From Natronorubrum tibetense GA33 (GTDB lineage: Archaea > Halobacteriota > Halobacteria > Halobacteriales > Natrialbaceae): DNA of 64,000 nt. The DNA is taken from assembly GCF_000383975.1 (NCBI RefSeq), contig NZ_KB913017.1, forward strand, positions 1,903,105-1,967,104, in the 5' to 3' direction. The position numbers and the translations under genes are program-made. Positions 27,820 through 64,000 of the stretch are shown here, in pieces (position 1 is the first letter of the stretch; every line of letters begins with the position of its first letter). The notes beneath the pieces were generated by a model, which saw nothing but the letters and a program-made list of their open reading frames with translations, had not been told where the DNA came from and made no database searches.

Positions 27820-28375
27820 GGGAGAGAGAGCCTGGCTGCCGCGGTAGCTGTCTCGGCGACGGGGTAGCTATCTGACGTGGACCGACTCTCGGAGTCGCTC
27901 TACGCTGTAACGTGATCCATCCCTTCGGGATGCATCACGCTCTACCGTTGCCCGTCCCTCCGGGACGCGCAACGTACGCGAGGAAAGTCCCCCCACCTGT
28001 TCGGGCAGGTGACCGGACGCAAGTCCGGAGCGGGAGACCGCTGGCTCTGGAACAGAAACGACACGTCTCGGCCCGACCGATGATGCGCGCGAACCCGACC
28101 GAGAGGAAGGGGAGCTAACCCGCAGAGGATTGCGGTTGATATCCCGTGGTTCAAATCCACGGATCGTGTGCGCGGTTCGGAGCGCCTTCGGCGCGAAAAC
28201 CGCGAGTCACGATCGACCGTATGGAGACGGCCGAGGAGCGATGGAACGGCGAACCCTCACCGGTGCAAGTCCGTGCCGTGGTAGCCCGAACGCCCCGCGG
28301 CATCGCCGCGGACGGCACGGACGCTCAGCCGAATGCCGGGACGAACAGAAGGGGGCTTACTCCTCTCACCCAGTT
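27820..28375 (+). ncRNA. rnpB: RNase P RNA (archaeal type A)
   Basis: Catalytic RNA that removes 5' leaders from tRNA precursors. Hallmarks are the conserved GAGGAAAGTCC (27980-27990) and ACAGAAGGGGGCTTAC (28345-28360), whose AAGTCCCCC and GGGGGCTT strands pair as P4. P1 is proposed from GGGAGAGAG (27820-27828) against CTCTCACCC (28363-28371, one mismatch), and P2 from GGCTG (27834-27838) with CAGCC (28326-28330). Between them lie hairpins GTGAT..ATCAC (27912-27938) and GTTGC..GCAAC (about 27946-27973, P3 region). A T-arm-like hairpin sits at 28144-28162. At about 555 nt it is long for the family. Open frames across it are not genes. Confidence 0.9.
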
Positions 28376-31124: not shown

Positions 31125-31801
31125 CGATGAAAACGTCCTGACGGAGTCTTACGCGAGCGTAGCGAGCGTTGGGCACGGACGACGCGTGCGTCGTCCGGAG
31201 ATTTGGACACGGAAAGACGGTCGCCCTCGCTTCGCTCGGCCGCTGCGACTTTCCTGCTCAAATCTCCGGTGGAGTTTCGTCGACACCAGACGCTCGCTTC
31301 GCTCGCGATTTGGTGTCGACAAAAACGTTCTGACGGAGTCTAACGCGAACGAAGTGAGCGTCCTGACGGAGTTCTCTGCGAACAGGGTGAGCAGAGAGCA
31401 CGGACGGCGCGTGCGTCGTCCGGATATTTGAACAGGTGAGAGACGTTCCTACTCACCTCGCTTCGCTCGGTTGCGCGGGCTGTGACTCTCGTGTTCAAAT
31501 CTCCGTATATGAGTTTCGCCGACACCGGCCGCTCGCTTCGCTCGCGGTTTGGTGTCGGCAAAAACGTCCTGACGGAGTCTTACGCGAACGAAGTGAGCGT
31601 AAGGCACGTCAGGACCGAACGCAAGAGCGAGTGCTGAACAACGTGAAGCACTCGCGATAAGTGAGCGTCCTGACGGAGATTTGAACACGGGAAGACGGTC
31701 GCTCCCTTCGGTCGCGCTGCGACTTCCCTGCTCAAATCTCCGTATATGAGTTTCGCCGACACCAGCCACTCGCTTCGCTCGCGGTTTGGTGTCGGCAGAA
31801 A
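31125..31801 (-). repeat. Array of tRNA-Arg 3'-end units with hairpins
   Basis: Reading from tRNA-Arg downstream on the minus strand, the tRNA 3' end (plus-strand CGTCCTGACGG) recurs at 31666, 31565, 31359, 31326 (one mismatch) and 31134. Several copies are preceded by the T-arm half GTTCAAATCTCCG, and an inverted copy (CGGAGATTTGA) lies upstream of each complete one, forming long hairpins. A second hairpin, GCCGACACC/GGTGTCGGC (for example 31520-31560 and 31756-31796), follows three of the copies. No coding frame here is credible; apparent open frames come from the repeat. Confidence 0.8.
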
Positions 31802-31874
31802 CGTCCTGACGGAGATTTGAACTCCGGTCCCTGGCTCCGCAAGCCAAGAGGATAGTCCACTACCCTACCAGGAC
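31802..31874 (-). tRNA. tRNA-Arg (anticodon GCG)
   Basis: Complement reads acceptor GTCCTGG (31874-31868) paired with TCAGGAC at the 3' end (one G-T pair). The D arm is GGGTAGTGGACTATCC. The anticodon stem is TTGGC/GCCAG with loop TTGCGGA (anticodon GCG, reading CGC), and the T arm is CCGGAG-TTCAAAT-CTCCG. Discriminator G is at 31802, CCA is not encoded, and there is no intron. A GCTTTAGTG box at about 31900-31908 (minus strand) is in promoter position. It is followed immediately by the repeat array described separately. Confidence 0.92.
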
Positions 31875-36692: not shown

Positions 36693-36798
36693 GCCGAAGT
36701 AGCTCAGTTGGTAGAGCACCTCGCTGTTACGGTGACACAGCACTTCGCTGGTCGCCGCAGATACGAGGTTGTCCCAGGTTCGAGTCCTGGCTTTGGCG
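36693..36798 (+). tRNA. tRNA-Asn (anticodon GTT) with BHB intron
   Basis: Acceptor GCCGAAG (36693-36699) pairs with CTTTGGC (36791-36797), discriminator G. Anticodon stem CCTCG (36719-36723)/CGAGG (36764-36768), anticodon GTT at 36726-36728. A 33-nt intron (36730-36762) lies after position 37. It folds into the canonical bulge-helix-bulge: helix GGTGAC/GTCGCC, bulge TAC, helix CTGT/GCAG, bulge ATA. Splicing after the second base of each bulge restores a normal loop. A CTATTTGG box is upstream, and a TTTTTT run follows (about 36811-36816), unlike the other four tRNAs. Confidence 0.92.
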
Positions 36799-42203: not shown

Positions 42204-42310
42204 GGGCCCTTAGCTCAGTCTGGTTAGAGCGCTCGGCTCATAACACGGCCGCAACTGGTGCGGGTGTGTGAGATACCGAGTGGTCGATGGTTCGAATCCG
42301 TCAGGGCCCA
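42204..42310 (+). tRNA. Elongator tRNA-Met (CAT) with short BHB intron
   Basis: Acceptor GGGCCCT (42204-42210) pairs with AGGGCCC (42303-42309), discriminator A. Anticodon stem CTCGG (42232-42236)/CCGAG (42276-42280), anticodon CAT at 42239-42241. A 32-nt intron (42243-42274) follows position 37. Its BHB has central helix CTCA/TGAG with bulges TAA and ATA, and an outer helix CACGGCCGC/GCGGGTGTG (one mismatch, one G-T). T arm GATGG-TTCGAAT-CCGTC. CCA is not encoded. Elongator tRNA-Met introns are common in haloarchaea but are longer in Haloferax. Confidence 0.92.
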
Positions 42311-42419
42311 TGTATCTCGCGGCGAACAACTCGTGAGCCGCGAGTACGGGATCGCTGGCGGATTCGAAGCAGGGAGGAGCTTCGCTCTGACCGAGGTTCG
42401 TAATCCGTCAGGGCCCATG
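42311..42419 (+). repeat. tRNA-trailing unit after tRNA-Met
   Basis: Directly after the tRNA comes a hairpin CTCGCGGC (42316-42323)/GCCGCGAG (42337-42344) with the 13-nt loop GAACAACTCGTGA. Then comes an inverted T-arm half CGGATTCGAA (42359-42368) and a small GAGC-TTC-GCTC hairpin. Last is a direct copy of the tRNA 3' end, GGTTCGTAATCCGTC followed by AGGGCCCATG (42395-42419), with a single inserted base relative to the real tRNA. The unit has the same order as those after tRNA-Val and tRNA-Phe. Confidence 0.75.
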
Positions 42420-57342: not shown

Positions 57343-57416
57343 GGGCTCGTGGTCTAGCTGGTTATGACGCGGCCTTTACAAGGCCGAGGTCGGTGGTTCG
57401 AACCCGCCCGAGCCCA
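57343..57416 (+). tRNA. tRNA-Val (anticodon TAC)
   Basis: Acceptor GGGCTCG (57343-57349) pairs with CGAGCCC (57409-57415), discriminator A at 57416. D arm GTCTAGCTGGTTATGAC. Anticodon stem CGGCC/GGCCG with loop TTTACAA, anticodon TAC reading GTA/GTG. T arm GGTGG-TTCGAAC-CCGCC. No intron and no encoded CCA. A GTTATTCGG box lies about 30 bp upstream. The 3' end is followed without spacer by a hairpin and a second T-arm and acceptor copy. Confidence 0.95.
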
Positions 57417-57539
57417 TATTTCTGCCGCGAACAAGTCGTGAGCGGCAGAAATCTGTCGCGAGTGGTGGGTTCGAACTAGACCGAGGTTCTGCGCCGCAGG
57501 CGCAGGTTCTCGGGCGTAGTTCGAACCCGCTCGAGCCCA
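57417..57539 (+). repeat. tRNA-trailing unit after tRNA-Val
   Basis: An 11-bp hairpin, ATTTCTGCCGC (57418-57428)/GCGGCAGAAAT (57442-57452), encloses the 13-nt loop GAACAAGTCGTGA. Then an inverted T-arm half GGGTTCGAACTA (57467-57478) pairs exactly with TAGTTCGAACCC (57517-57528). Inside lie CCGAG..CTCGG and a CTGCGCC-GCA-GGCGCAG hairpin (about 57489-57505). The unit ends with GCTCGAGCCCA (57529-57539), a copy of the tRNA 3' acceptor strand with one mismatch. Confidence 0.82.
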
Positions 57540-63682: not shown

Positions 63683-63756
63683 GCCGCCTTAGCTCAGACT
63701 GGGAGAGCACTCGACTGAAGATCGAGCTGTCCCCGGTTCAAATCCGGGAGGCGGCA
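63683..63756 (+). tRNA. tRNA-Phe (anticodon GAA)
   Basis: Acceptor GCCGCCT (63683-63689) pairs with AGGCGGC (63749-63755), discriminator A at 63756. Anticodon stem CTCGA/TCGAG with loop CTGAAGA (anticodon GAA). T arm CCCGG-TTCAAAT-CCGGG. No intron and no encoded CCA. Followed directly by a hairpin and repeated copies of its own 3' end up to the window edge. Confidence 0.95.
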
Positions 63757-64000
63757 TACTTTTCCGCGAGGCAATTCGCCGAGCGGAAAGTATCCAACCG
63801 ACCGGTTTGAACCCTGGAAGTCACAGCCCGGGAGCGCAGCGTAGTGAGCACCCCGGAATGTCTTCCTCCGGTTCAAATCCGGGAGGCGGCACTTCTCGCG
63901 GCGAACAACTTCGTGAGCCGCGGGTGTGCGACCCGAGCGGATTTGAACTAGAGAACTCGCAGCGCGAGCGAAGCGAGCGACCGTGTTCGCGTGGTTCAAA
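63757..64000 (+). repeat. Two tRNA-trailing units after tRNA-Phe (second cut by edge)
   Basis: Unit 1: hairpin ATACTTTTCCGC (63756-63767)/GCGGAAAGTAT (63783-63793), then the inverted T-arm CCGGTTTGAACC (63802-63813), GGAAG/CTTCC arms, and an exact 24-bp copy of the tRNA 3' end ending at 63891. Unit 2: hairpin CGCGGC (63897-63902)/GCCGCG (63917-63922) with loop GAACAACTTCGTGA, the inverted T-arm CGGATTTGAAC (63938-63948), and GTGGTTCAAA at the window end, the start of another direct copy. Confidence 0.82.

Follow-up and report, generated by a model that had tools for sequence, protein, structure and literature searches.

Units behind tRNA genes in the 64-kb window

The window, the whole 64,000-nucleotide stretch of Natronorubrum tibetense GA33 analysed here, carries genes for tRNA-Val, tRNA-Met, tRNA-Phe and, on the minus strand, tRNA-Arg, each followed directly by one or more short units (Table 1). 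Behind tRNA-Val come, in order, a first hairpin (HP1), the T-arm in inverted copy, another hairpin (HP2) and the tRNA stretch from the T-loop to position 73, repeated in direct orientation. The preliminary description of 57343-57539 had reported the tRNA, both hairpins and both copies, and it proved exact in each. The 11-bp stem of HP1 is formed by 57418-57428 pairing with 57442-57452, a perfect 12-nt inverted pair joins 57467-57478 to 57517-57528 with CCGAGGTTCTGCGCC/GGCGCAGGTTCTCGG nested within it, and the direct copy, taken as 57516-57539, is identical to the end of tRNA-Val at 22 of 24 positions. An HP2 that is 98% identical to this one (type A) lies behind another tRNA of the same genome, with a different 3' end.

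The order is repeated after tRNA-Met and tRNA-Phe, and in modified form after tRNA-Arg, as had been proposed; the direct copy of the tRNA-Met unit has an extra T inside the T-loop (GTTCGTAATCC). The loop described as common to the Val, Met and Phe sites was also recovered, with three matches to GAACAASTN{0,1}CGTGA in the window against 0.00 expected. An intron-bearing tRNA at 36693-36798 has no unit. Scanning the window with Rfam returned only tRNAs, RNase P and weak chance matches, and the units match no curated covariance model; the RNase P hit is an archaeal RNase P RNA at 27962-28371 (plus strand; RF00373, 122.6 bits).

Table 1. Positions of the anchoring tRNAs and of the downstream units in the window.
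Feature	Position	Strand	Basis
tRNA-Val(TAC), anchor, T-loop TTCGAAC	57343..57416	+	ARAGORN and Rfam RF00005
HP1 after tRNA-Val: 11-bp stem, GA/GA internal pair, loop around AACAAGTCGT	57417..57455	+	Inverted repeat, stem covariation
Inverted copy of T-loop and T-stem 3' strand (Val unit)	57464..57478	+	
HP2 core of Val unit, type A (TAGACCGAGGTTCTGCGCC...GGCGCAGGTTCTCGGGCG), common to other tRNAs	57479..57516	+	98% identical HP2 elsewhere
Distal end of Val unit: tRNA positions 53-73 in direct copy	57519..57539	+	22/24 with tRNA end
tRNA-Met with intron, anchor	42204..42310	+	Rfam RF00005
One complete unit after tRNA-Met, HP2 type B (CAGGGAG...CTGACCGAG)	42311..42417	+	
tRNA-Phe, anchor	63683..63756	+	ARAGORN and Rfam RF00005
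First tRNA-Phe unit, direct copy 24/24	63757..63891	+	
Second tandem tRNA-Phe unit, runs past window end	63892..64000	+	
tRNA-Arg, anchor	31802..31874	-	ARAGORN
First tRNA-Arg unit, direct copy 22/24	31666..31801	-	
Further, decayed tRNA-Arg units: HP1 type recurs, ...CTCCGTCAGGACG end copies repeated	31130..31665	-	Sequence

Pairing of the hairpins

Over 15 units, both sides of the HP1 stem had changed in 10 of 13 pairs. For HP1 and the T-arm pairing together, 93.9% of cells were paired and covariation was 0.484, compared with 0.183 for shuffled and at most 0.121 for slid alignments. At 4.1%, G-T pairs were less frequent in HP1 than in folded tRNAs (7.8%) or in HP1 sequences after shuffling (11.8%), which is a mild hint that HP1 pairs as DNA rather than as RNA. 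A kink-turn reading of HP1 was rejected by inspection, as the GA/GA pair is symmetric and has no 3-nt bulge.

The T-arm copies follow the local tRNA

A unit begins immediately behind tRNA position 73 and closes with a 3' end re-made from the T-loop onwards; the stretch from the T-loop to 73, approximately 20 bp, is thus duplicated per unit. Direct copies matched their own tRNA at 18.6/20 compared with 12.9 for swapped tRNAs, and inverted copies at 10.3/12 compared with 8.9, own exceeding swapped in 59/60. The first suggestion from the window, of a tRNA sequence made anew at every site, is upheld for both copies. Across 182 units the inverted copy tracks its own tRNA from position 54 to approximately 64 and fades beyond, with specific signal at positions 57, 59, 62, 63 and 64.

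Single-base insertions in 192 direct copies fall mostly (23/28) at T-loop positions 57/58, where they are C or T only; 23 of the 192 copies have such an extra base, for example GTTCACAAT and GTTCATAAT. This cluster may mark the junction at which the ends were joined, or alternatively may result from selection against a second T-loop.

Distribution in the genome and across haloarchaea

The 4.93-Mb genome has 46 tRNAs by Rfam, to which ARAGORN adds tRNA-Pro(CGG), which also has a unit. Approximately 30 of these 47 genes are followed by units; a recognisable first unit lies behind 29 of the 46 Rfam tRNAs, and decayed ones behind a few more. The last 24 nt of the tRNA are repeated at 19/24 or better downstream of 21/46 tRNAs and upstream of 0/46. 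A covariance model of the unit gave 39 genome matches at E≤0.001, and inspection of those away from listed tRNAs placed one after tRNA-Pro, one after a tRNA-Pro-like 3' fragment, and one each at an interrupted tRNA-Gly array, a tRNA-Glu 3' half and a protein gene. The tRNA-Gly array is broken by approximately 2.6 kb carrying a TnpB-like ORF of 412 aa (L301, 1206-2444, minus strand).

Across 242 haloarchaeal genomes the HP1 loop pattern exceeds its reversed control, with a peak in the window's own family. The unit covariance model was positive in 22 of 24 haloarchaea and in none of 124 other genomes of the phylum, and a unit is present at tRNA-Val in all ten genomes of the genus. The preliminary description would have given way had the pattern been absent at other tRNAs and in relatives; this is excluded, as most tRNAs carry it and it is found across haloarchaea.

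A type-B HP2 pattern without any tRNA sequence retrieved at least 120 stretches, and all matches listed are haloarchaeal; among them are Haloferax, Haloarcula, Halorubrum, Halobellus, Natrinema, Natrialba and other genera. When named haloarchaeal contigs were scanned for HP2 blind to tRNAs, 75 of 83 matches had a tRNA of the same strand no more than 300 nt upstream. Some of the remaining eight are cut by the end of the sequence piece, and L157, L189 and L216 are real exceptions.

HP1 and HP2 are separate modules

Among 173 units, nearest neighbours of HP2 with a similarity of at least 0.9 were found 65 times at tRNAs with a different 3' end, a count in which the type-B share is inflated by the pattern used for retrieval, with the long types giving the same picture. 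At the same threshold and in the same units, HP1 had 30 such neighbours at the same 3' end and none at a different one. The long HP2 types (43 and 51 nt) are 98% identical behind different tRNAs of one genome, and for those pairs HP1 similarity is at background (median 0.38 vs 0.37). Chimeras at the same tRNA (L101/L102, L142/L143, L077/L078 and others) have one hairpin alike and the other different, and breakpoints of both chimeras and HP2 swaps coincide with the T-loop copies.

The earlier statement that the units are not one repeat copied around therefore needs to be divided: it stands for HP1, which stays with its tRNA, and fails for HP2, which was copied between tRNAs. Transposition of whole units between tRNAs was rejected as the usual route, as HP1 never travels with HP2 across different 3' ends. 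Crossovers in the T-loop copies flanking HP2 would leave the tRNA-specific halves in place and so account for the lasting match of both copies to the tRNA beside them, whereas an exchange on the HP1 side would replace the tRNA's own 3' end and would presumably be selected against.

Probable gain, stacking and decay between relatives

At tRNA-Val, HP1 and HP2 differ even between genomes G000 and G008, although the sequence beyond the unit still aligns. A closer pair, G003 and G006, was compared at 36 orthologous tRNAs. At two of these (L117/L118 and L121/L122) G003 is occupied where G006 has no unit, and the orthologous flanks match; at four (L085/L086, L104/L106, L119/L120 and L127/L128) one of the two genomes has one extra unit next to the tRNA. 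One tRNA gives an ordered series over three species: a new unit followed by U1 and U2 in G000 (L028), U1, U2 and U3 in G003 (L119), and U2 and U3 in G006 (L120). At tRNA-Lys of G003 (L087) there are two identical tandem units.

Where units are in tandem, the most intact one adjoins the tRNA; in 45 arrays with at least two copies, direct copies carry a mean of 0.33 edits in the first position and 1.29 in the second. Single cases of presence and absence could be losses via the direct repeats. Polarity and the ordered series, together with the non-tRNA case described below, argue for gains.

Units at the end of a protein gene

In Natronorubrum texcoconense (L157) three tandem units lie behind an OB-fold protein gene ending CGGTTCGAACCGGTCTGA, the product of which matches Pfam OB_ChsH2_C with a score below the cut-off. 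The duplicated part is here the gene's own end, over a span (approximately 18-23 bp) similar to that from the T-loop to position 73. The same gene end carries units at two paralogues in the genome of the window (L303 and L305). Among 30 homologues retrieved three are occupied, in addition to L157 and L305; the others have no HP2 motif, and one of them (L312) has a decayed HP1-like stretch. Most of the empty homologues retain a T-loop-like palindrome.

As no tRNA sequence is duplicated here, the repeated stretch cannot have arrived with a tRNA-derived element, and must stem from copying or staggered cutting of the target. A duplication made from the target also argues that the unit is neither solely a device for tRNA processing nor attachment-site debris. 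Three proposals had been made for the Val unit, and the one of a mobile element using tRNA 3' ends fits best, while those of an RNA-processing device and of a decoy are weakened by the non-tRNA sites.

Candidate enzymes and integrative elements

The reported lack of an integrase in the window was corroborated, as none of the nine integrase-domain matches of the genome falls there. Tyrosine recombinases (Phage_integrase domain) are encoded in 15/15 unit-bearing genomes, with none in the window or within the arrays seen; they are common everywhere, so their presence gives weak support. The T stem-loop is one known att region in tRNA genes for archaeal tyrosine recombinases (PMC8371274), and on these two grounds they lead as candidate motor. 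Duplication of the new target's own sequence at the OB-fold gene would nevertheless need a staggered or copying step beyond conservative tyrosine-recombinase integration. Cas1 or a casposase was rejected as general motor because Cas1 is absent from 12 of the 15 unit-bearing genomes, including G000, G003, G006 and G008.

No enzyme, autonomous relative or circular form came to light. Pattern scans of IMG/VR gave a single match, due to chance, in a Mu-like phage of bacteria, and the Val unit had no blastn match in phage or plasmid records.

The preliminary description had allowed that the units could be remnants beside a complete integrative element. At tRNA-Glu(CTC), integrase-linked DNA adjoins the tRNA and the unit lies approximately 162 kb away beside a tRNA-Glu 3' half, a layout which indicates that the unit and the integrase-linked DNA are separate things and does not bear that account out. 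The approximately 162 kb between tRNA-Glu(CTC) and the second 3' half (L284 and L304; G000:C1:3243463-3405631) is probably a large integrative element. In Haloterrigena salina (L189, 498-1078, plus strand) a broken integrase-like ORF lies near a tRNA 3' fragment with a unit; it has no Pfam match and is integrase-like by reading of the sequence.

Comparison with known systems

Integrons (attI, attC, IntI) are anchored arrays of fixed orientation with the newest cassette beside the anchor; their cassettes bear genes and their attC sites have the core GTTRRRY. The units likewise form an anchored, oriented array with the newest member beside the anchor, and HP2 is an imperfect hairpin bounded by inverted core sequences. 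They differ in being anchored at the tRNA T-loop, in having the core GTTCRAAY rather than that of attC, in duplicating the target, and in their size of approximately 100-150 bp, which leaves no room for a gene.

With CRISPR adaptation and casposons the units share target duplication and anchor-proximal growth into head-to-tail arrays, both of which were found. Casposons favour tRNA 3' ends and make duplications of 14-15 bp, and for the Methanosarcina mazei casposon the duplication takes in no more than the final 4 bp of its tRNA (PMC6977970). Unlike casposons, the units have no terminal inverted repeats, and Cas1 is missing from most of the genomes that bear them (12/15).

Haloarchaeal MITEs, PATEs and SMRs (PMC3119063) resemble the units in being short, non-coding, palindromic and apparently mobilised in trans. 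Terminal inverted repeats bound the MITEs and SMRs, and insertion of PATEs and SMRs leaves the target unduplicated; in the part of that source used here, none of the three is tied to tRNA genes or rebuilds a tRNA end. The two ends of a unit (TTTCTG.. and ..GTGGTTC), unlike those of MITEs, do not form an inverted repeat, and the units duplicate approximately 20 bp of target, unlike PATEs or other IS200-IS605 derivatives. As in tRNA-targeting integrative elements (PMC8371274), the 3' part of the tRNA is used and the tRNA left intact; however, at approximately 100-150 bp the units have no cargo or integrase and are too short for an integrase gene, and they duplicate the target at a non-tRNA gene too, from that gene's own sequence.

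No earlier description of the units was found in the open-access literature, and they seem to be small mobile elements of a kind not described before. This claim of novelty follows from the differences listed above and from a literature search limited to open-access papers.

Origin of the units

The units are probably haloarchaea-wide, non-coding and non-autonomous cassettes of approximately 100-150 bp, which target T-loop-like sequences, chiefly in tRNA genes, form polarised arrays and are mobilised in trans. The target would be duplicated at an infrequent founding insertion, in which the ends are joined with a stagger or by copying; the array would then grow by tRNA-proximal additions and shrink by recombination between T-arm repeats, and HP2 would be swapped between arrays via crossovers in the conserved T-loop. 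As motor we suggest a recombinase that acts in trans on the hairpin DNA; the likeliest candidate is a tyrosine recombinase of haloarchaea for which the T-loop serves as core site. More tentatively, they may represent a new class of mobile DNA, that of gene-less integron-like cassettes with tRNA T-loops as anchors, in which the target 3' end is duplicated at each founding insertion and HP2 modules are swapped on folded T-loop sites by an enzyme of the host or mobilome; we consider this possible, at somewhat less than even chances.

The main rival as to the motor is replication itself. Fork stalling at tRNA genes, template switching at the T-arm palindrome and slippage between direct repeats could together create, correct and multiply the hairpins with no dedicated element. 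Correction of a quasi-palindrome would explain why inverted and direct copies match, and why the match fades gradually at its end (identity 0.81 at position 62, 0.44 at position 65), the identical tandem copies at L087 resemble slippage, and no enzyme was found. Such a process would not be expected to yield particular HP1 and HP2 motifs that recur across haloarchaea but are missing elsewhere, HP2 in common between tRNAs that share only approximately 8 nt of T-loop, or a unit complete with HP1 and HP2 at the end of a non-tRNA gene, and we think it unlikely.

Less probable still is an RNA device, in which hairpins in the pre-tRNA trailer serve as a terminator, an aid to 3' processing or a decoy for tRNA-end enzymes. 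Both hairpins fold strongly and covary, the units begin exactly at the mature tRNA 3' end, and the extra T-loop base in some direct copies would stop their likeness to tRNA; yet approximately one third of the tRNA genes of the same genome have no unit, the number and type of units vary between close relatives at the same tRNA, a unit also lies behind a protein gene, and HP1 is poorer in G-T pairs than tRNA folds or its own shuffled sequences. That the units are what ordinary proviruses or tRNA-targeting integrative elements left behind at their attachment sites is very improbable: the T stem-loop is among the known att regions of tRNA genes (PMC8371274) and a broken ORF, integrase-like by its sequence and with no Pfam match, lies near a tRNA fragment at L189, but the hairpin anatomy is alike in dozens of tRNAs and genera, no integrase lies between HP1 and the direct copy at any site seen, and the integrase-linked DNA at tRNA-Glu(CTC) has no unit on the tRNA side, the unit being approximately 162 kb off.

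If the units are cassettes mobilised in trans, most tRNA genes of these archaea bear a layered record of past insertions that has seemingly never been annotated. They would offer an independent system, beside integrons and CRISPR, for the origin of arrays with a fixed growing end, and would bear on how tRNA 3' ends draw DNA integration and on how a non-coding element re-specifies both target copies at each site. The conserved hairpins hint at a DNA-joining enzyme, which may serve tRNA-site engineering in halophiles.

In one further stretch of the genome (G000:C1:1969560-1969764; L046) a unit, itself decayed, lies behind the decayed remnant of a tRNA-like sequence (GCCACCT...GGGGTGGCA), possibly the site of a lost tRNA gene.
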